A stretch of DNA of 64,000 nucleotides from Rhodococcus sp. HNM0563 (GTDB lineage: Bacteria; Actinomycetota; Actinomycetes; Mycobacteriales; Mycobacteriaceae), in NCBI RefSeq assembly GCF_012726195.1, contig NZ_JAASAF010000001.1, forward strand, positions 434,001 through 498,000, given 5' to 3'. Shown here one piece after another: positions 2 through 11,256 of this stretch. The notes beneath the pieces are model-generated. The model saw nothing but the letters and a program-made list of their open reading frames with translations, ran no database searches and had not been told where the DNA came from. Position 1 is the first letter of the stretch. Each line of letters begins with the position of its first letter. The position numbers were made by a program, and so were the translations under genes.

Positions 2-442
2 GGTCTCCAGCTCAACGCGACACAGCCCGGTCTGGTCGTTGCGCTTGCGTTCGTCACGCTGCCGTTCGTGGTGCGGTCGGTCCAACCCGTCCTGATCGAG
101 GCAGACCGAGAGGTCGAGGAGGCCGCGGCATCACTCGGTGCCGACAACTTCACGACTTTCCGGACCGTGGTGCTACCGACCTTGGCGCCCGCGATCCTCG
201 GCGGAGTCGGGCTTGCGTTCGCCCGCGCAATCGGGGAGTACGGCTCGATCGTGCTGATCGGAGGGAACATTCCCGGCCGGACTCAGGTGGCATCACAGTA
301 CATTCAGCAGCAGATCGAGATCGACCGGCCCGTCAACGCCGCGGCGGTCTCGGTGGCACTGTTGCTCATCGCGTTCGTGGCACTGTTCGTGCTGCGGCTC
401 GTCGCGAACCGCGGTCGTGTCCGTGAGGAGAGCGACGCGTGA
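2..442 (+). CDS. cysT: Sulfate ABC transporter permease CysT, 3' part
   Basis: This is the C-terminal 146 residues of an inner-membrane permease of the sulfate/thiosulfate importer; the gene begins left of the window and is open from base 2. The cytoplasmic EAA loop that docks on the ATPase is visible as [20 protein letters not shown], followed by two hydrophobic membrane segments. It is preceded by the typical [17 protein letters not shown] segment. The stop overlaps the GTG of cysW by four bases (GTGA), which implies translational coupling in a cysTWA operon. Assignment to CysT rather than molybdate ModB rests on the paired CysW-like second permease and the CysA-type ATPase that follow. The periplasmic sulfate-binding protein must lie outside the window. 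Confidence 0.9.
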
Positions 443-1248
443 AACTCTCTCCGCTCTCGCGTATCTCGCTGCGTGTGATCGCTCTGGGCTATCTGGTGGC
501 ACTGCTGGTCGTACCGATCGGCGTCATCCTCTACCGCACCTTCGAGAACGGTGTGATGGCGTTCGTCGACTCGATCTCGACGCCCGCAGCGATCTCCGCG
601 CTCAACCTGTCGTTGCTCATCGTCGCGATCGTCGTCCCCGTCAATGTCGTGTTCGGCATCGTCGTCGCGCTCGCGCTCGTGCGTGGACGATTTCCGGGAC
701 GCGGACTTCTGCAGTCCGTCGTGGATTTGCCGTTCGCGGTGTCGCCGATCGTCGTCGGTGTCGCGCTGATCATGCTGTGGGGTGCGGGCGGCTGGCTCGG
801 CGGGCTCGAATCCTTGGGATTCAGAGTAATTTTCGGACTTCCCGGCATGGTCATTGCGACGATCTTTGTCACCCTGCCGTTCGTGGTGCGCGAGGTCGAA
901 CCTGTCCTCTACGAGATCGGAGAGGAACAAGAGCAGGCCGCCGCGACGCTGGGTGCGGGCAAGTGGCAGACGTTCCGGCGAATCACCCTGCCGGCAATTC
1001 GCTGGGGGTTGACGTACGGCATCGTCCTCACCGTCGCCCGCGCGCTCGGCGAGTTCGGTGCGGTCATCATGGTTTCGTCCGGGTTTCCCGGGGTATCTCA
1101 GACCCTCACGTTGCTCGTTCATGCTCGCTACATCGACGACCACAACACCTTCGGCGCGTACAGCGCGGCCACCCTGCTCATGGCCATCGCAGTGCTGGTC
1201 CTGCTGCTGATGACATTGCTCGACCGCAAGAGGAGCACCAAAGCATGA
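439..1248 (+). CDS. cysW: Sulfate ABC transporter permease CysW
   Basis: This 269-residue permease is the second membrane subunit of the sulfate/thiosulfate importer. About six hydrophobic segments are visible, starting with [17 protein letters not shown]. The EAA cytoplasmic loop, [20 protein letters not shown], lies near residues 155-175 and is the contact to the CysA ATPase. The GTG start overlaps the cysT stop and the TGA overlaps the ATG of cysA, so all three genes are translationally coupled. Length is usual for the family. CysT and CysW are distinguished here by gene order and by general similarity, not by a diagnostic residue. Confidence 0.92.
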
Positions 1249-2249
1249 TCACCGTTACCGGGGCGTTCAAGAACTACGGCGACTTCTCCGCGCTCGACGA
1301 CGTCTCCCTCGACATCCCGCCCGGCTCGTTGACGGCCCTTCTCGGTCCGTCCGGCTCGGGTAAATCGACGCTGCTGCGATCGATCGCCGGGCTCGAATCC
1401 CTCGACGGCGGCACCGTCCACATCGCGGGCAACGACGTCACGCACGTATCGCCGCAGAAACGTGGGATCGGCTTCGTGTTCCAGCATTACGCTGCCTTCA
1501 AGCATATGACGGTTCGTGAGAACGTCGCGTTCGGTCCGAAGATCCGCAAGCTCCCGAAACAGCAGATCAGGGCGAAGGTCGACGAACTCCTCGAGGTCGT
1601 CGGCCTGGACGGATTCCAGCATCGGTACCCCGCACAGCTCTCGGGTGGGCAGCGGCAGCGTATGGCGCTCGCCCGAGCTCTGGCGGTGGACCCTCAGGTG
1701 CTACTGCTCGACGAGCCGTTCGGCGCGCTCGACGCGAAGGTACGCGCCGACCTGCGGACCTGGTTGCGCCGACTCCATGACGAGGTTCACGTGACCACTG
1801 TGCTGGTCACACACGACCAAGAGGAAGCGCTGGATGTCGCCGACCGCATCGCCGTGATGAACCGAGGACGGATCGAGCAGGTCGGGACGCCGGAGGATCT
1901 CTACGACCGCCCGGAGAACGACTTCGTGATGTCGTTTCTCGGGAACGTCTCGAAGTTCAACGGCAGGCTCGTGCGGCCGCACGACATCCGGCTCGGTCAC
2001 GAACCCGGACTCGAGGTCGCGCAGGCGTCGGGTACGGAGGAACTCGGTGTCGCCCGCGCCACCGTCGAACGGGTGGTGCATCTCGGGTTCGAGGTGCGCG
2101 TCGAGTTGACGAACGCCGCCACCGGCGAGCCGTTCATCGCGCAGATCACCCGTGGCGATGCGCGTGCACTCGGTCTGAAGGCCGGAGATACGGTGTACGC
2201 GCAGGTCACTGCCGCACCCGGTGGGCCCGTTGTGGTGAGCGCCGACTAG
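1245..2249 (+). CDS. cysA: Sulfate ABC transporter ATP-binding protein CysA
   Basis: This 334-residue ATPase powers sulfate/thiosulfate import. Walker [10 protein letters not shown] is at residues 34-42, the signature LSGGQ at 132-136, and Walker B LLLDEPF at about 153-159, followed by a D-loop and the switch histidine in [11 protein letters not shown]-terminal TOBE-like regulatory domain covers roughly residues 235-334. The ATG is chosen because it overlaps the cysW stop (ATGA); the reading frame is open far upstream, but that extension has no family similarity. The gene ends nine bases before the convergent universal stress gene, and no terminator hairpin was seen between them. Confidence 0.95.
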
Positions 2250-4238: not shown

Positions 4239-4985
4239 TCAGGCGGCGACGAGCATGCGGGACGCAGCGACGGCGGCCAGGTAGCGGGCGACGATCACGT
4301 CACCGATGGCCGCATGATCGGTGAGGGTCGCCGCGATGTGCACGCCCCGAAGAGATTCGGCTGCGGCGCACGCCCGATCCCACAGCAGTCCGGGCGCCAG
4401 CATCCACGGCACGAGCACGAGTGTGCGCGCACCCGCGCGGGAGAGTTCCGTCAGTGCCGTTTCCACGGACGGCTCGGTCGCCGTCGCGAAGCATGTTCGG
4501 CCCGAACTCCACTCGGTCCCGGCCAATACGCGTGGTGTGACCATCGCGGTCGACGAATTCGCACCGGCCCGGCGCGAACCGACCGCACAGAGCGCGACTC
4601 CGACCGCCGGATCGTCCCGCGACACACCCGCGGCAACAATGTTGTCGCGCGCCGCCGACACGAGCAGTTCGTCGTCGCCCAGGATCTCGGAGGTCACGAT
4701 GTCGAGGTAGGGGTTGCGGATCGCGGATTCCGCGAGCAGCGCCGGAAGATCGATACGCGCGTGGAACGCGCTGCCGAGCAGCAACGGAACGACAACAGCC
4801 TGTCGATGCCCTGCGGCGGCCACCGTATCGAGCACCTGCGGGACCGACGGGCTGTTCAGATCGAGGAACGCGAGCCGGACATCGAGTTCGGGATGCCGGT
4901 CGCGGACCGCTGCGAGCGCGGCAGCCACGGCCCGCGCTGAGCGCGGGTCACGGCTGCCGTGCGCGACAGCGATCAGCGGGATCAT
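4239..4985 (-). CDS. Sirohydrochlorin chelatase (CbiX/SirB family)
   Basis: This 248-residue protein belongs to the CbiX/SirB family that inserts Fe2+ (or Co2+) into sirohydrochlorin. The start motif LIAVAHGSRDP carries the conserved metal-binding histidine at residue 9. A second chelatase-like half (from about residue 125) gives the two-domain length common in actinobacteria. The ATG overlaps the cysN stop (ATGA), so the gene is the last member of the assimilatory sulfate operon. That context argues for siroheme supply to the sulfite reductase encoded at the head of the operon rather than for cobalamin synthesis. The frame is open well upstream, but only this start is consistent with the family. 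Confidence 0.9.
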   Translation of the reverse strand: MIPLIAVAHGSRDPRSARAVAAALAAVRDRHPELDVRLAFLDLNSPSVPQVLDTVAAAGHRQAVVVPLLLGSAFHARIDLPALLAESAIRNPYLDIVTSEILGDDELLVSAARDNIVAAGVSRDDPAVGVALCAVGSRRAGANSSTAMVTPRVLAGTEWSSGRTCFATATEPSVETALTELSRAGARTLVLVPWMLAPGLLWDRACAAAESLRGVHIAATLTDHAAIGDVIVARYLAAVAASRMLVAA

Positions 4986-6280
4986 GCGGGAACGTGATCC
5001 CCGAGCTCGATGTCGGAGAGCCCGTTCCCGACCAGACCGGCCGCAAGGGTGTTGCCACCGGCCGGATCGATGAGGAGGAAACTTCCGGTGCGGCGGTTGA
5101 CCTTGTAGTCGTCGGCAGCGATCGGTTCGGCGACGCGCACCGAGATCCGTGCTATCTCGTTGAGTTCCAACGATTCCGGGTTGGGGACAGAGGTCAGGTT
5201 CTGCTCGTCGAAGCGCTCCTCGAGAGTGCCGACGATCGCCTGCGTTGTGCGCGTGCCGTGCTTGAGCAGCAGACGAGCACCCGGACGCAGCGGCTTCTCG
5301 GCAAGCCAGCACACGGTCGCCTCGAATTCGCCGATCGGCTCCGGTGCTCCAGGCGCTGCGATCACGTCGCCACGTGAAACGTCGACGTCGTCGGCCAGAA
5401 TCAACGTCACCGATCGACCGGCATGCGCGACGTCGAGTTCACCGTCGGCGGTGTCGATGCGCTCGACCGTCGTGCGGATACCGGACGGCAGGATCACGAC
5501 CTGGTCGCCGGGACGGACCGAACCGGCGCCGATCTGACCGGCGTAGCCGCGATAGTCGGGGAACTGAGCAGTGCGGGGCCGGATCACGTATTGGACCGCG
5601 AACCGCAGGCCGACATCGTGCCGTCCGTGCGTATCGGCGTCGACCGGGACGGACTCGAGGTGCTCGATGAGGGTCGGGCCGTCGTAATACGGGGTGTTCT
5701 GCGAGCGGGTGGCGACGTTGTCCCCGTGCAACGCCGACACGGGAATCTCCTGTACGTCCTCGGCGGCCCAGCCGAGTGAGCGCGTGAGCGAGGTGAATTC
5801 GTCCCTGATGTCGGCGAAGACCTGTGCCGGGTCTTCGACGAGGTCGATCTTGTTGACAGCGAGAACAAGTTTGGGCACGCCGAGAAGTGCGAGCACGGCT
5901 GCGTGCTTGCGGGTCTGTTCGATCACACCCTTGCGTGCGTCGACGAGCAGCACGACGAGCTGCGCGGTGGAGGCGCCGGACACAGTGTTCCGCGTGTACT
6001 GCACGTGACCGGGGGTGTCGGCGAGCACGAAACTGCGCTTCGGGGTGGCGAAGTACCGGTAGGCAACGTCGATGGTGATGCCCTGCTCCCGCTCGGCGCG
6101 CAGGCCGTCGACGAGGAGCGACAGGTCGGGTGTATCGAGGCCACGGTCGACGGATGCACGGGTCACGGCATCGATCTGGTCGGCCAGAACGGATTTTGTG
6201 TCGTACAGCAGGCGGCCCACGAGGGTGGACTTGCCGTCGTCGACACTCCCGGCGGTAGCCAGGCGAAGGAGGTCGCTCAT
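4982..6280 (-). CDS. cysN: Sulfate adenylyltransferase subunit 1 (GTPase) CysN
   Basis: This 432-residue protein is the GTPase subunit of ATP sulfurylase, which with CysD makes adenosine 5'-phosphosulfate (APS) from ATP and sulfate. EF-Tu-like GTPase motifs are present: G1 GSVDDGKST (residues 11-19), G3 DTPGH (88-92) and G4 NKID (143-146). Beta-barrel domains follow. In many mycobacteria CysN is fused to an APS kinase (CysC); here the protein stops after the barrel domains and no CysC domain is present, consistent with an APS-reducing pathway that needs no PAPS. It is separated by two bases from cysD and overlaps the chelatase gene. Confidence 0.96.
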   Translation of the reverse strand: MSDLLRLATAGSVDDGKSTLVGRLLYDTKSVLADQIDAVTRASVDRGLDTPDLSLLVDGLRAEREQGITIDVAYRYFATPKRSFVLADTPGHVQYTRNTVSGASTAQLVVLLVDARKGVIEQTRKHAAVLALLGVPKLVLAVNKIDLVEDPAQVFADIRDEFTSLTRSLGWAAEDVQEIPVSALHGDNVATRSQNTPYYDGPTLIEHLESVPVDADTHGRHDVGLRFAVQYVIRPRTAQFPDYRGYAGQIGAGSVRPGDQVVILPSGIRTTVERIDTADGELDVAHAGRSVTLILADDVDVSRGDVIAAPGAPEPIGEFEATVCWLAEKPLRPGARLLLKHGTRTTQAIVGTLEERFDEQNLTSVPNPESLELNEIARISVRVAEPIAADDYKVNRRTGSFLLIDPAGGNTLAAGLVGNGLSDIELGDHVPA

Positions 6281-6282
6281 GA

Positions 6283-7227
6283 TCAGAAGTAGCCCTCTCG
6301 CTTGCGGTCTTCCATGGCCGCTTCGGAAACTCGGTCGTCGCCACGAGTAGCGCCGCGTTCGGTCAGGCGCGATGCCGCAACCTCGGCCAGGATGGCCTCG
6401 TTGTCGGCGGCGTCGGACAGCACGGCGCCGGTAGTGGAGCCGTCACCCACCGTGCGGTAACGCACCGAGAGAGTCTGCAACTCCTCGTCGTCCTTCGGGC
6501 CGCCCCACACACCGGGCGTCATCCACATACCGTCACGCTGATAGACGGGGCGTTCGTGCGCGTAGTAGATGCTTGCGAGTTCTACGTTCTCGCGCGCGAT
6601 GTAGCGCCAGATGTCCAGCTCGGTGAAATTGCTCAGCGGGAACACACGCACCTGTTCACCGGGGGCATGCTTGCCGTTGTAGAGATTCCACAGCTCGGGG
6701 CGCTGGCGCTTGGGATCCCACTGGCCGAATGCGTTGCGCAGCGAAAAGATCCGCTCCTTTGCGCGTGCACGTTCCTCATCGCGACGGGCGCCGCCGAAGA
6801 CGGCATCGAAGCGGTTCTCCGAGATCGCGTCGAGGAGAGGCACTGTCTGCAGGGGGTTGCGGATTCCGTCGGGCCGCTCGGTGAGGCGGCCGTCGGCGAT
6901 GTACTCTTCGACGCTCGCGACATGCAGCCGCAGGTTGTACTTCTCGACGACGTGGTCGCGGAATGCGAGCACCTCGGGGAGGTTGTGGCCGGTGTCGACA
7001 TGCAGCAGCGCGAAGGGCAGTGGTGCAGGCCAGAAGGCCTTGATCGCGAGATGCAGCAGAACGGTCGAATCCTTGCCCCCCGAGAACAGGATCACGGGAC
7101 GCTCGAACTCGCCCGCAACTTCGCGGAAGATGTGGATCGCTTCGGACTCGAGGGCGTCGAGGGTGTCGAACTTGTTGCCGTCGAGCTTGATTCGTTCTTC
7201 GTTGGGCTTCGTATCGATGAGTGTCAT
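6283..7227 (-). CDS. cysD: Sulfate adenylyltransferase subunit 2 CysD
   Basis: This 314-residue catalytic subunit of ATP sulfurylase belongs to the PP-loop family and forms APS with CysN. The PP-loop SGGKDST sits at residues 49-55; HVDTGHNLPEV and FGGARRDEERARAKER are further family signatures, and the C terminus ends in the characteristic DRKREGYF. The ATG at 7227 overlaps the cysH stop (ATGA). An in-frame upstream extension is open but would run deep into cysH. The length is normal for CysD. Confidence 0.97.
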   Translation of the reverse strand: MTLIDTKPNEERIKLDGNKFDTLDALESEAIHIFREVAGEFERPVILFSGGKDSTVLLHLAIKAFWPAPLPFALLHVDTGHNLPEVLAFRDHVVEKYNLRLHVASVEEYIADGRLTERPDGIRNPLQTVPLLDAISENRFDAVFGGARRDEERARAKERIFSLRNAFGQWDPKRQRPELWNLYNGKHAPGEQVRVFPLSNFTELDIWRYIARENVELASIYYAHERPVYQRDGMWMTPGVWGGPKDDEELQTLSVRYRTVGDGSTTGAVLSDAADNEAILAEVAASRLTERGATRGDDRVSEAAMEDRKREGYF

Positions 7228-7931
7228 GAGGAGTGCAACCCGCATTCGGTCTTGGCTTGGCCGGCCCAGCGTCCGCTGCGCGGATCGGCCCCGGGAAGTG
7301 GCTTGTTCGTGCACGGGGCGCACCCGATGGACGGGTAGCCCTCGTCGACGAGGGGATTGACGAGAATCCCGTGCTCGTCGATGTAGTTCTGCATGTCCTC
7401 GTCGGACCATGCGGCGATCGGATTGATCTTCACGAGTCCGAACGCTTCGTCGAACGAGATCAACGGTGCGTTCGCTCGCGTCGGCGATTCGACTCGCCGG
7501 ATGCCGGTGACCCACGCGCGATACCCGCTCAGGGACTCCTTCAGAGGCACCACCTTGCGCAGCCGGCAGCACTCGTTGGGCTCGCGGGCGAACAGATCCT
7601 TGCCCAGCAGTGCGTCCTGCTCGGCAACGGTCTGCTTCGCTGCGGCATTGATCACGTTGACCCCGTACACCTGCTCCACGGCGTCACGGGTGCCGAGGGT
7701 CTCGGGGAAGTGGTAGCCGGTTTCCAGGAACAGGACGTCGACGCCGGGGTGGATCTGGGCGGCGAGGTGCACCAGCACCCCGTCCTGCATGTTCGACGCG
7801 ACGATGTACGAGTCACCGAACGTGTCCTCGGTCCAGCGAAGCAATTCCTGAGCCGACGCACCTGCGAGGTTTGCCGCCCCCTGCGCGGCGAGCTCTCGCA
7901 GGTCGTCGGTGGTGTGTGTCGATGTGGTCAT
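7224..7931 (-). CDS. cysH: Adenylylsulfate (APS) reductase CysH
   Basis: This 235-residue assimilatory reductase converts APS to sulfite and AMP. The iron-sulfur cluster ligands of the APS-type enzyme are all visible: the Cys pair C121-C122 (ECCRLRK) and C204-x2-C207 (GCAPC), with the catalytic cysteine in the C-terminal ECGLH at C230. These four ligands distinguish it from the cluster-free PAPS reductase and agree with the absence of an APS kinase beside it. It overlaps both neighbours by four bases, with nirA upstream and cysD downstream. Confidence 0.96.
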   Translation of the reverse strand: MTTSTHTTDDLRELAAQGAANLAGASAQELLRWTEDTFGDSYIVASNMQDGVLVHLAAQIHPGVDVLFLETGYHFPETLGTRDAVEQVYGVNVINAAAKQTVAEQDALLGKDLFAREPNECCRLRKVVPLKESLSGYRAWVTGIRRVESPTRANAPLISFDEAFGLVKINPIAAWSDEDMQNYIDEHGILVNPLVDEGYPSIGCAPCTNKPLPGADPRSGRWAGQAKTECGLHSS

Positions 7932-9649
7932 CGAAGATCCGCCTCATCTGCTCGTACGGTCCACTCGGCGAAGCGTTCGCCTGCGTTCCTGTGCTTGATG
8001 AAATTGCGTACGATGCGCTCGATGTAATCGGTCGCCTCGTGCGCGAGGATGCGGTGCTGACGCAGCTTGCGTCCGAATCCGATATCGAACCCGAGGCTGC
8101 CACCGAGGTGTACCTGGAACCCCTCGATCTGGTTTCCGTCACCATCGTCGACCAGCATTCCCTTGAACCCGATGTCGGCGATCTGAATGCGCGCGCAGGA
8201 GTTGGGGCAGCCGTTGAAGTTGAGCGTGATCGGCACGTCCAGCTGGGAATTGAGCTCGGCGAGGCGCTTCTCGAGTTCCGGCACGAGGTTCTGAGACCGG
8301 CTCCGGGTCTCGGTGAACGACAGCTTGCAGTATTCGAGGCCGGTGCAGGCGATCAGGTTGCGGCGCCACCGCGACGGACGCGAGCTCAGACCCACGCCTT
8401 CGAGAGCACTGTCGAGGCCGGCGATCTTGTCGTCCGGAACGTTGACGACGATCAGCTTCTGGTACGGGGTCAGCCGCAGCGAGTCCGTGCCCGCCTCGTC
8501 CATCGCGTCGGCGATCACGTCGAGCGTCGTGCCGGACACTCGACCCGACACGGCGGAGAATCCGACCGCGTTGAGTCCGTTGGTCTGCTTGGTGAGGCCG
8601 ACGTGGTCGATCGGATGGAGCGGTGTCTCGGGCGCCGGCCCATCGATCAGCGGCCGCTTCAGGTACTCCGTCTCGAGTACCTCGCGGAACTTCTCGATGC
8701 CCCAGTCCTTGATGAGGAACTTCAGACGTGCCTTGGAACGCAGCCGACGGTAGCCGTAATCGCGGAAGATCGCGACGACGCCTTCCCACACATCGGGGAC
8801 CTCATCCAGCGGAATCCACGCGCCGGTGCGTTCGGCGAGCATCGGATTGGTCGACAGACCGCCGCCGACCCACAAGTCGAAGCCCGGGCCGTGTTCGGGA
8901 TGAACGACGCCGACGAACGAGACGTCGTTGATCTCGTGTACGACATCGGGCTGTCCGGAGATCGCAGTCTTGAACTTGCGAGGAAGGTTCGAGTATTCGG
9001 GGTTGCCGATGTAGCGGCGCTTGATCTCGGCGAGCGCCGGGCTCGCGTCGATCACCTCGTTCGGGGACAGACCGGCGAGGGGGGAGCCGAGCATTCCGCG
9101 GGGGCAGTCGCCGCAGGCCTCGGTGGTCTCGAGTCCGACGGCCTCGAGGCGACGCCAGATCTCCGGCACGTTCTCGATCTCGATCCAATGGAACTGGATG
9201 TTCTGGCGGTCGGTGATGTCGGCGGTATCGCGCGCGAAATCCTTCGAGATGCCCGCGATCGCGCGCACCTGTGCGGTGTTGAGAACGCCGCCGTCGGTGC
9301 GGACCCGCATCATGAAATACGGGGCCTCGAGGAGATCGGCGTTGTCGTCGCCGGTCCACGTACCGTCGTATCCTTCGGCCCGTTGCGTGTACAGGCCCAT
9401 CCAGCGGAAGCGGCTGCGGAGGTCCGCCTTGTCGATGTTGTCGAATCCGACATGCTGGTAGGTGTCGATGATCCGCTGTCGAACGTTGAGCGGGTTGTCG
9501 TCCTTCTTGGTCTGCTCGTTCGGGTTGAGGGGCTCGCGGTAACCGAGCGCCCACTGGCCTTCTGCGCGGCGCTTGGTGGGCTTCGCCGAGCGGCGGCGAG
9601 CCGGGGGTGCCGTGTCGGCGGCGGGAGCGACGTCGGTGGTCGACGACAT
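7928..9649 (-). CDS. sir: Assimilatory sulfite reductase (ferredoxin)
   Basis: This 573-residue enzyme performs the six-electron reduction of sulfite to sulfide using siroheme and a 4Fe-4S cluster. The ligands are C435-x5-C441 and C481-x3-C485 (ACTGLEYC and GCPNSC), the last probably bridging to siroheme. Two ferredoxin-like half domains and two siroheme-binding halves follow the usual nitrite/sulfite reductase layout. Actinobacterial homologues are often named NirA or SirA; placement as first gene of the cysH-cysD-cysN operon points to sulfite rather than nitrite. A good ribosome site, AGGAGA, precedes the ATG. A leader peptide gene lies 109 bases upstream. Confidence 0.95.
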   Translation of the reverse strand: MSSTTDVAPAADTAPPARRRSAKPTKRRAEGQWALGYREPLNPNEQTKKDDNPLNVRQRIIDTYQHVGFDNIDKADLRSRFRWMGLYTQRAEGYDGTWTGDDNADLLEAPYFMMRVRTDGGVLNTAQVRAIAGISKDFARDTADITDRQNIQFHWIEIENVPEIWRRLEAVGLETTEACGDCPRGMLGSPLAGLSPNEVIDASPALAEIKRRYIGNPEYSNLPRKFKTAISGQPDVVHEINDVSFVGVVHPEHGPGFDLWVGGGLSTNPMLAERTGAWIPLDEVPDVWEGVVAIFRDYGYRRLRSKARLKFLIKDWGIEKFREVLETEYLKRPLIDGPAPETPLHPIDHVGLTKQTNGLNAVGFSAVSGRVSGTTLDVIADAMDEAGTDSLRLTPYQKLIVVNVPDDKIAGLDSALEGVGLSSRPSRWRRNLIACTGLEYCKLSFTETRSRSQNLVPELEKRLAELNSQLDVPITLNFNGCPNSCARIQIADIGFKGMLVDDGDGNQIEGFQVHLGGSLGFDIGFGRKLRQHRILAHEATDYIERIVRNFIKHRNAGERFAEWTVRADEADLR

Positions 9650-9758
9650 GCAGTTCTCCTGGATTCGAAGGACCGGATCGAAGGCGCGAGGGGGCTGACC
9701 TCATGCGAACACGCCTCGACCCGGCGGGATCTGGGATGTGCCGGGGATAGTGCCGAAA

Positions 9759-9854
9759 CTAGCGACAGGCGGCGCAGGGCAGACAGAAAGACGCACAGAC
9801 ACGCTTGAGGTCGACGTGGCGTCGCGCCACGAGTCGCACTCCGAGTCCGGTCAT
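9759..9854 (-). CDS. Cysteine-rich leader peptide of the sulfite reductase operon
   Basis: A 31-codon frame upstream of the sulfite reductase gene begins at ATG and ends in TAG. It contains ARRHVDLKRVC, the hallmark of actinobacterial putative leader peptides found before sulfur-assimilation genes, and its tail is rich in cysteine, with Cys at residues 20, 24, 27 and 30 of 31. In mycobacteria, cysteine-tract leader ORFs act as cysteine-responsive attenuators: ribosomes stall when charged tRNA-Cys is scarce and downstream genes are then expressed. The same role is inferred here. No Shine-Dalgarno sequence is visible, and a candidate -10 element lies seven bases before the ATG, so the mRNA may be leaderless. 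Confidence 0.85.
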   Translation of the reverse strand: MTGLGVRLVARRHVDLKRVCASFCLPCAACR

Positions 9855-9926
9855 GGCGAACATTGTGCCATGTCACGGGGCTGTTTCCGAATCCGGAAGG
9901 CATTTCCACCAAAAATCGGGGAAATG
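9855..9926 (-). promoter_or_regulatory. Predicted promoter/operator region of the sulfur operon
   Basis: Reading leftward, CACAAT (9867-9862) followed by seven bases and the leader ATG could be a -10 element for a leaderless transcript, with a weak TTCGGA-like -35 about 18 bases further back. Two inverted repeats overlap or precede it: TTCCG/CGGAA with a 4-base spacer at 9885-9898, overlapping the -35 position, and CATTTCC/GGAAATG with a 12-base spacer at 9901-9926. These are candidate sites for a sulfur-status regulator. The assignment is by eye; the same region also precedes hemW on the other strand. Confidence 0.35.
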
Positions 9927-9984
9927 TCGAGGTAGGCGCGCTGCGCCGACGGGAGCTCGCCGGGTCTCTGGAACACTGGAGGCT

Positions 9985-11256
9985 GTGAGTGAGACGAGAA
10001 CCGGCAGTGCACTAGGTGCTGAACGCACTGCGCCCGGTGCGGGACACGGGTTCGAACTGCCGGCGAGCGCACTCGACGGCGTCGGCAGCAGACCGTTCGG
10101 GGTGTACGTGCATGTGCCGTTCTGCGCGACCCGCTGTGGTTACTGCGACTTCAACACCTACACCGCGGGTGAGCTCGGGTCCGCGGCCTCGCCCGAGTCG
10201 TGGCTGGAAGGACTCCGGCGCGAACTCGACGCAGGCGCCGAAATGCTCGACCGCAGCGGCCGCGGTACCTCGGCTGCGGAGACCGTGTTCGTCGGTGGCG
10301 GGACGCCGTCCCTGCTCGGCGCCGACGGGCTTGCCGACGTGCTGAGTGCGGTCCGATCGTCGTTCGGGCTCGCACCCGGTGCCGAGGTGACCACCGAATC
10401 GAACCCCGAGTCGACGTCGCCCGAGTTCTTCGCTCGGATTCGTGACGCCGGCTACACCCGAATCTCCTTGGGTATGCAGTCGGCGGCCTCCCACGTACTC
10501 GCGGTGCTCGACCGCACGCACACTCCGGGGCGTCCCGTCGCCGCGGCGCGTGAAGCTCGCGAGGCCGGATTCGGACACGTCAATCTGGACCTGATCTACG
10601 GCACACCGGGCGAGACCGACGCCGATCTCGATGCGTCGCTCGATGCCGTGCTCGACGCCGGCGTGGATCACGTATCGGCCTATGCGCTGATCGTCGAGGA
10701 CGGAACCGCACTGGCCCGCCGGGTCCGGCGGGGTGAACTCCCTGCGCCCGACGACGACGTACTCGCGTCTCGGTACGAACGCATCGACCGCCGGCTCGCG
10801 GAAGCTGGACTCACCTGGTACGAGGTCTCCAATTGGGCTCGCGCCGAGGACCGTTCGGCAAGATGCGGTCACAATCTCGGCTATTGGGAGGGCGGGGACT
10901 GGTGGGGGGCAGGTCCGGGGGCACACAGTCACGTCGGCGGAGTGCGCTGGTGGAACGTCAAACACCCCGGGCGCTATGCGGGCGTGCTCGCCGAAGGGCA
11001 GCTACCGGTTGCCGGTAGCGAGACCTTGACCGCTGCCGACATCCACACCGAATCGGTGATGCTCACCGTGCGGCTGCGCACCGGACTTCCACTGGCAGAG
11101 CTGGACGCCGGTGAACTCGACGCGGCGCGGACGGTCGTCGACGACGGCCTCGCCGTCGTAGCCGATGATCACCTGATCCTCACCGACCGCGGCCGATTGC
11201 TCGCGGACGGGGTGGTGCGGACCATCCTGCTCGGCACCGACCCGCGAATGAGCTAG
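9985..11256 (+). CDS. hemW: Radical SAM heme chaperone HemW (HemN-like)
   Basis: This 423-residue radical-SAM protein carries the cluster motif C47-x3-C51-x2-C54 (CATRCGYCDF), then GGGTPS and the HemN-type C-terminal domain. It lacks the longer N-terminal region of true coproporphyrinogen dehydrogenase, and the motif CxxxCxxCxF without the extra cysteine of HemN fits HemW, the heme-trafficking chaperone. Members are often annotated as HemN. The GTG at 9985 is chosen because GGAGG lies three bases ahead and the upstream frame overlaps the divergent leader region. The stop overlaps the convergent 11253-11630 gene by four bases. Confidence 0.9.
   Translation: MSETRTGSALGAERTAPGAGHGFELPASALDGVGSRPFGVYVHVPFCATRCGYCDFNTYTAGELGSAASPESWLEGLRRELDAGAEMLDRSGRGTSAAETVFVGGGTPSLLGADGLADVLSAVRSSFGLAPGAEVTTESNPESTSPEFFARIRDAGYTRISLGMQSAASHVLAVLDRTHTPGRPVAAAREAREAGFGHVNLDLIYGTPGETDADLDASLDAVLDAGVDHVSAYALIVEDGTALARRVRRGELPAPDDDVLASRYERIDRRLAEAGLTWYEVSNWARAEDRSARCGHNLGYWEGGDWWGAGPGAHSHVGGVRWWNVKHPGRYAGVLAEGQLPVAGSETLTAADIHTESVMLTVRLRTGLPLAELDAGELDAARTVVDDGLAVVADDHLILTDRGRLLADGVVRTILLGTDPRMS

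Follow-up and report, generated by a model that had tools for sequence, protein, structure and literature searches.

Known cysteine leaders and the sirA locus

Leader peptides with cysteine runs were predicted in 2005 for the cys operons of Mycobacterium, and the accessible portion of that report describes them as without conserved hairpins capable of termination (PMC1262725). A leaderless, cysteine-rich upstream ORF preceding nirA/Msmeg_4527 was reported in 2015 (Shell; PMC4633059, available in part), and the leaders of M. smegmatis are cited as cysteine-responsive translational attenuators in the available parts of two further papers (PMC9031893, PMC13236596). In the literature searched we found neither such a leader described for Rhodococcus nor the two hairpins presented here. 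The work of Canestrari et al. 2020, in which leaders of this kind were reportedly tested in M. smegmatis, could cover the mycobacterial part.

The leader that we describe lies in the window (the whole 64-kb stretch of Rhodococcus DNA that was analysed), in front of an assimilatory operon that includes sulfite reductase. Sulfite reduction sets the supply of cysteine and thiols in these bacteria. The genes and signals of the locus are as follows.

9862 to 9870, minus strand: TGGCACAAT, readable as the extended -10 of the leader/sirA transcript, 7 nt before ATG 9854
9759 to 9854, minus strand: cysteine-rich leader ORF, predicted leaderless, 31 codons plus stop, MTGLGVRLVARRHVDLKRVCASFCLPCAACR, from ORF reading and conservation
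9765 to 9797, minus strand: Cys-codon stretch (TGT 9797-9795, TGT 9785-9783, TGC 9776-9774, TGT 9767-9765)
9656 to 9661, minus strand: Shine-Dalgarno sequence CAGGAG of sirA, invariant in 18 Rhodococcus and 26 Nocardia rows, with variants elsewhere
7928 to 9649, minus strand: sirA (NirA-type), assimilatory sulfite reductase (Pfam NIR_SIR, NIR_SIR_ferr)
7224 to 7931, minus strand: cysH, (P)APS reductase
6283 to 7227, minus strand: cysD, sulfate adenylyltransferase small subunit (TIGR02039, 476.7 bits on 6283-7206)
4982 to 6280, minus strand: cysN, sulfate adenylyltransferase large subunit (TIGR02034, 528.9 bits)
4239 to 4982, minus strand: CbiX-like sirohydrochlorin chelatase (NF033198, 72.3 bits, under the cut-off of 120)
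9985 to 11256 (as scanned), plus strand: HemW/HemN-like radical SAM gene, divergent from the leader and sirA

The original prediction described a 31-codon frame with the string ARRHVDLKRVC and four cysteines among its last 12 residues, directly upstream of the operon and possibly on a leaderless mRNA. The frame can be read directly on the minus strand, which the prediction had left unstated; it runs from ATG 9854 to a TAG stop at 9761-9759, encodes 31 residues and has its cysteines at positions 20, 24, 27 and 30. The position holds as well. A 109-nt spacer separates the leader stop from the sirA start (9649), and the operon behind it, in the order sirA-cysH-cysD-cysN-CbiX-like chelatase with all genes on the minus strand, spans about 5.4 kb. 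The closest named relative of the sirA protein among the matches listed is from Rhodococcus sp. SMB37 (94%). Elsewhere in the window (68-2249, plus strand), visual inspection suggests sulfate ABC transporter permeases and an ATPase among the ORFs.

A leaderless transcript is what the promoter predicts. The motif TGGCA[CG][ACT]AT stands 6-8 nt before the start of 79/79 leaders (the window and 78 relatives), at 7 nt in 68, 6 nt in 10 and 8 nt in one; because it was sought at 5-9 nt in this form, its fixed letters are by construction, but the match in all 79 is not. The TGG preceding the hexamer reads as an extended -10, and the first base of the hexamer is C instead of the usual T. The distance from a -10 element to the transcription start is usually 6-7 nt, which would put the first transcribed base at or adjoining the start codon (ATG in 47 leaders, GTG in 32). 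The mechanical ORF list opened the same frame three codons earlier, at ATG 9863 (34 aa). We prefer the 31-codon start because ATG 9863 overlaps the -10-like element, and also because the spacing from the -10 to the start predicts a leaderless mRNA. The pattern TGGCACAATN{6,8}RTG has one match in the window (0.01 expected) and four in the 5.5-Mb genome, against one for the reversed pattern. A generic sigma-70 scan, which requires a -35 match too, gave no site at the leader promoter. Farther upstream, two blocks are conserved, one resembling GGGGAAAT at roughly 42-49 nt and one resembling TCGGAA at roughly 24-29 nt from the -10 end (window 9885-9910, minus strand; same region in 79 loci). They might serve as a regulator site or a -35-like element, or belong to the promoter of the divergent hemW-like gene.

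Conservation of the leader and its relation to Ms4527A

The leader was sought with the pattern R[RLH][HA][VIL]D[LFWYM].R in the 900 nt upstream of sirA, at the best 80 of at least 579 related loci, all from named genomes. It was present at 78/80 of these Mycobacteriales loci, and the genera among the sirA loci listed include Rhodococcus, Nocardia, Gordonia, Tsukamurella, Williamsia and Mycobacterium. One exception (L083) is a contig that starts 51 nt before sirA; at the other (L118, a Mycobacterium MAG) the pattern was not found within 900 nt upstream of sirA. Five motif residues (Arg(0), Arg(1), His(2), Asp(4), Arg(7)) do not vary among the 79 leaders, with up to five codons per position; the search pattern itself demanded Arg(0), Asp(4) and Arg(7), while it allowed other residues in place of Arg(1) and His(2). 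Conservation extends outside the pattern to Leu(-3) (79/79), Val(8) (78/79) and Cys(9) (75/79). The cysteine-rich tail differs between clades, with lengths of 24-37 and 1-7 cysteines across the 79 leaders, and several Rhodococcus relatives carry a CLPCAACxCADC tail. Three Gordonia leaders (L101, L104, L122; 3/79) read RRHIDLKRV but have a single cysteine (RVNSAFC, RVASASC). The spaced cysteines of the window and these single-cysteine leaders are not explained by a sensor that is purely a run of codons.

Kinship to the mycobacterial cysteine leaders, the second claim of the original prediction, is borne out by a match of the window leader to NCBIfam NF042936 (leader_Ms4527A) at E 1.7e-10, though its 40.2 bits lie under the cut-off of 45. 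Because of this score the window leader is no formal member of the family, only a variant at the equivalent place. Among five other leaders compared with the same profile, the four from other clades score 46.1-57.9 and so pass, while a Rhodococcus leader, at 44.4, does not. The prediction had also called for comparison across Rhodococcus genomes, and that check, now run, found the leader in every one: the profile matches 18/18 genomes of the genus at E <=1e-4, once each, and none of 14 control genomes at that threshold. The cut-off is reached in 0/18, so annotation with NF042936 would miss the leader. In a wider sample, at a loose E <=1, 58/61 genomes match, as do 5/14 controls, and 3/61 are above the cut-off. 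At most 150 first-look candidates were scored per genome in these searches and in those with NF042934.

The window leader resembles the Ms4527A leader of M. smegmatis in its place before sulfite reductase, its RRH[VI]D..RVC core, cysteines near the stop and a leaderless start, which is predicted for the window. It differs in that its cysteines are spaced and form no run, whereas many relatives have CC or CCC, and in carrying a full coding-region hairpin (H0, below) that mycobacterial leaders without Arg(-4) and Val(3) do not have. The core motif also matches NF042934 (cis_reg_atten, putative leader peptide) at 24.2 bits (E 1.8e-5, cut-off 27). Set beside the leaderless cysteine-codon attenuators of Mycobacteriales, the window has their promoter placement and their position before a sulfur operon, and lacks their polycysteine run. 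The earlier interpretation had both the object and its kind right, as far as comparison of sequences supports it. The leader is a variant of the mycobacterial cysteine leader with a sub-cut-off score, spaced cysteines and conserved RNA hairpins for which we found no description. Cysteine attenuation, on which others have done experiments in mycobacteria, would thereby reach Rhodococcus and the remaining Mycobacteriales in the sample.

Hairpins and codon choice

The leader is under two layers of selection, on its peptide and on its RNA, where a hairpin is kept beyond coding needs.

9812 to 9836, minus strand: hairpin H0, CGAC(UC)GUGGC-GCGAC-GCCACGUCG, leader codons 7-15, 9 bp

The general form of H0 is CGAC(UC)GUGGC-NNNNN-GCCACGUCG; 14 nt separate its end from the first Cys codon, and folded alone the window copy has -12.2 kcal/mol (z -1.65). 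Arg(-4) and Val(3) occur together in 48 leaders, and 47 of these form all nine pairs. When their codons were replaced by synonyms according to the sirA codon usage of each locus, the H0 pairs averaged 2.0 and numbered at most 7 in 1000 trials, a test that takes the sirA codons of the same loci as its control and ignores relatedness among the 48 leaders. The full nine pairs occur in 0/31 leaders without Arg(-4) and Val(3), mycobacterial ones included, and there the native codons fold more stably than recoded ones (-8.2 vs -6.4 kcal/mol). The third base of Arg(1) permits pairing in 48/48 leaders of the first set and 11/31 of the second.

Single codons tell the same story as the pairs. Arg(-4) is CGA in 47/48 leaders, a codon used for 6% of arginines in the sirA genes of these loci, and none of 50 conserved sirA Arg columns is as uniform. 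Val(3) is GTC in 57/57 leaders and Val(-2) is GTG in 63/67; for each of the two, 0/41 sirA Val columns are as uniform. It is these nearly fixed codons that make up the arms of H0. Leaders of trp operons have a hairpin for pausing or synchronising, and by analogy H0 is best read as a putative hairpin of this type. The cysteine codons are also biased, TGT accounting for 161/264 in the leaders and 18/547 in sirA, with a greater TGT fraction in the leader than in sirA at 79/79 loci. GAT makes up 52/104 in the leaders vs 15% in sirA, so the TGT bias is partly general. His, Phe and Tyr do not follow it, with 18/93 in the leaders for His (15% in sirA), 0/45 for Phe and 0/18 for Tyr.

Three further helices concern the spacer between the leader stop and sirA.

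9684 to 9706, minus strand: CAGCCC-loop hairpin, stem UGAGG/CCUCG plus GC/GC, loop UCAGCCC at 9698-9692
9720 to 9745, minus strand: helix H1, CCCGGC (9745-9740) with GCCGGG (9725-9720)
9673 to 9724, minus strand: helix H3, CCGGGUCGA (9724-9716) with UCGAUCCGG (9681-9673)

CAGCCC is present in 66/79 spacers (shuffled mean 14.0, max 22), and at most loci a hairpin some 50 nt upstream of the sirA ATG carries it in its loop. The loop is held by stems that differ by clade: GGCGUGAG/CUCACGCC in Nocardia, GAGGA/UCCUC in R. jostii and R. koreensis, GCGCCA/UGGCGC in Tsukamurella, CGCCGG/CCGGUG in several mycobacteria and UGAGG/CCUCG in the window. In an alignment (A4) of 26 rows, hand-picked for their flush 7-nt loop out of 52 distinct segments, 83.2% of cells pair (57.7 when shuffled), 52 cells are changed on both sides (17.8 when shuffled) and the covariation score is 0.711 (0.255 when shuffled), each value being reached by 0/500 shuffles; slid controls score at most 0.237. 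Two of the five measures on A4 are less extreme, with 8 pairs showing two-sided change vs 6.6 (85/500) and 23 pair types vs 18.3 (7/500). Tests on unselected material agree. A stem of at least 4 surrounds CAGC in 51/79 spacers (shuffled mean 10.0, max 17); in the 52 unselected segments the mean stem is 4.75, where swapped controls average 3.17 and reach 3.87 (1000 trials), and a stem of at least 4 occurs in 35/52 (control mean 17.0, max 25). CAGCC at 35-72 nt (111 in L092) was not found in 14/79 loci, which include the R. fascians-type L095, L097 and L099 and several Mycobacterium.

Folded alone, the window copy of the CAGCCC hairpin has -8.2 kcal/mol (z -1.50). In the full leader its predicted probability without a ribosome is 0.06, because other helices compete; with a ribosome it is 0.33 at the first Cys and 0.02 at the last Cys and at the stop. 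Over 25 loci the mean probability is 0.63 free, 0.70 with a ribosome at the first Cys, 0.66 at the last Cys and 0.75 at the stop, and without a ribosome it is at least 0.5 in 16/25. A ribosome at the first Cys raises it in L110 (0.14 to 0.87), L113 (0.04 to 0.53) and L116 (0.03 to 0.86), and lowers it in L048, L078 and L106. We set aside the hairpin as a switch, as on average these 25 loci show no clear dependence on the ribosome.

Several other roles for the CAGCCC hairpin were tried and rejected. As a regulon-wide motif it does not stand out: its best match in its own genome is the window itself (26.1 bits, E 0.155), which ranks top by construction as a row of the model, and the next has 20.2 bits, with 150 of 2481 first-look candidates scored. 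The covariance model did find L055, which is outside its rows, at the expected place (24.6 bits). Depletion of GGGCT was considered as a sign of a free CAGCCC loop; in the control, TGGGC and CTGGG are at least equally depleted. An anti-Shine-Dalgarno role for the 3' arm suits some clades (L050, L052), and not the window or Nocardia (by eye).

For H1, 97.2% of cells pair in 18 Rhodococcus sequences, and for H3, 95.7%; slid controls reach at most 58.2% and 58.8%. Covariation support for both is weak, since the shuffle control matches them in 63/500 and 150/500 trials, respectively. The two helices are mutually exclusive because they share one arm. Folding of the whole leader was uninformative (z -0.31). 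A scan for covarying helices between leader and spacer gave short candidates among many column pairs tested, which we set aside. One proposed pairing joins two copies of GUCGAC, the first in the Val-Asp codons and the second in sirA codons 3-5; it is not general, and the mycobacterial sirA starts examined lack it. No Rfam family was found for the leader or its hairpins, a scan of 9300-10300 giving a single match far under the gathering score (10163-10203, plus strand).

Possible routes from a stalled ribosome to sirA

We put at about 85% the probability that this leaderless, cysteine-codon leader ORF is a cis-acting attenuator of sirA-cysH-cysD-cysN. Control by cysteine is inferred from homology to the mycobacterial leaders. 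With plentiful Cys-tRNA the ribosome would reach the stop and depart, and the operon would be poorly expressed; with scarce Cys-tRNA it would stall at codons 20-30 and the operon would be expressed. TGT codons may be a means of sharpening this cysteine sensor. For the final step we favour translational control of sirA as the most probable route because it is reported for the M. smegmatis relatives, and the main alternative for that step would be Rho-dependent termination. The two conserved RNA hairpins and the codon bias make the step from stalled ribosome to sirA directly testable.

The simplest form of translational control, in which the stalled ribosome unmasks the sirA start, fared poorly. 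In a coarse model over 79 loci, a ribosome mask at motif-frame codons 9-12 shifts the opening energy of the sirA start by a mean of 0.00 to -0.19 kcal/mol, an effect no larger than elsewhere in the leader. In the window the opening energy is 5.64 free and 5.13 and 5.02 with the mask at codons 9 and 10 (the first Cys codon and its neighbour, a drop of about 0.5-0.6 kcal/mol), and is unchanged from 11 on. We count the lack of a clear position-dependent opening of the sirA start against simple unmasking.

The mechanism might also be a composite one instead of plain attenuation by a run of codons, in which the leader coding sequence doubles as a pausing hairpin and the CAGCCC-loop element, whose stem covaries freely around an almost constant loop, is read in trans; we offer this riboregulator tentatively and consider it rather doubtful. 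In it the hairpin would time the ribosome relative to RNA polymerase, and a protein or RNA reader would add a second input to cysteine availability. The weak folding of the window's own CAGCCC hairpin lowers the odds of the composite mechanism.

If the sensor is the same, its output might instead be Rho-dependent termination in the spacer, with a finished leader uncovering the Rho site. We regard this as a possible outcome, though not the one we favour. Comparison with trpL-type attenuators bears on it: the window resembles these in having a leader ORF with codons for the end product (e.g. ilvB1 of M. tuberculosis, in the accessible part of PMC13236596), and its H1 and H3 would be mutually exclusive, but it lacks a terminator hairpin and U tract, with 0 intrinsic terminator-like sites in 9550-10050. 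Rho is kept in consideration because the spacer is C-rich and G-poor, its C/G ratio having a mean of 1.56 (1.52 in the window; >1.3 in 67/79) vs 1.08 in the first 1.5 kb of sirA; C-richness is, however, a weak predictor. Termination by Rho was raised as a possibility for the mycobacterial cys leaders by Seliverstov et al. 2005, whose prediction is called weak in the available portion of that paper (PMC1262725), whereas the M. smegmatis relatives are described as translationally attenuated in the accessible part of PMC13236596. A change in the sensor itself, rather than in its output, seems unlikely. Here the nascent peptide RRHVDxKRVC would itself cause arrest, stalling in the exit tunnel at low Cys-tRNA or cysteine, and few Cys codons would be needed. 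The constancy of its five invariant residues despite several synonymous codons would suit such a peptide, as would the persistence of single-cysteine leaders in Gordonia, but that conservation is partly at the RNA level, and the Cys codons are the reported sensor in those parts of the mycobacterial work that are accessible.

More distant from cis-acting attenuation is a small protein working in trans, such as a Zn- or redox-binding CxxCxxC peptide whose place before sirA is incidental. Its amino acids are conserved and the CLPCAACxCADC tails of several Rhodococcus relatives would fit, yet the cysteine-rich tail varies by clade, and the codon-level hairpin and TGT bias indicate roles in cis for RNA and ribosome. 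The leader moreover adjoins sirA at all but two of the 80 best-matching loci, the search having been confined to that place, and we consider a trans-acting peptide highly improbable. That the frame is open by chance, in intergenic DNA rich in GC, deserves mention since small ORFs are common here: 13 of at least 20 aa overlap 9600-10000, and a bare ORF there would mean little. The leader ORF is significant because it is conserved, not because it is open. Its conservation across genera at a fixed distance from the promoter refutes chance, to which we give practically no weight.

The cis-acting cysteine leader reading also fits what was seen elsewhere in the same genome, where four more NF042934-type cysteine leader candidates were noted (L044-L047, at C33:20422, C12:560509, C12:119979 and C33:357524), two above the cut-off and two below (E 2.7e-6 to 0.0016). 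In mycobacteria, separately placed operons are jointly read by cysteine, and the four candidates fit that picture. One precedes an ORF with a weak luciferase-monooxygenase match; another precedes a SCO4226-like protein, an ORF like acyl-CoA dehydrogenase (by eye; no Pfam match) and an ABC transporter; a third precedes a pyridine-nucleotide oxidoreductase resembling FprA (by eye), and a fourth a short ORF followed by a rhodanese-type sulfurtransferase. These genes are sulfur-linked or possibly so, and we count them in favour of the cysteine-leader reading. By eye, a TANNNT hexamer stands 6-7 nt upstream of a start codon in three of the candidates, and TAGGAA takes that place, 6 nt away, in the FprA-linked one.
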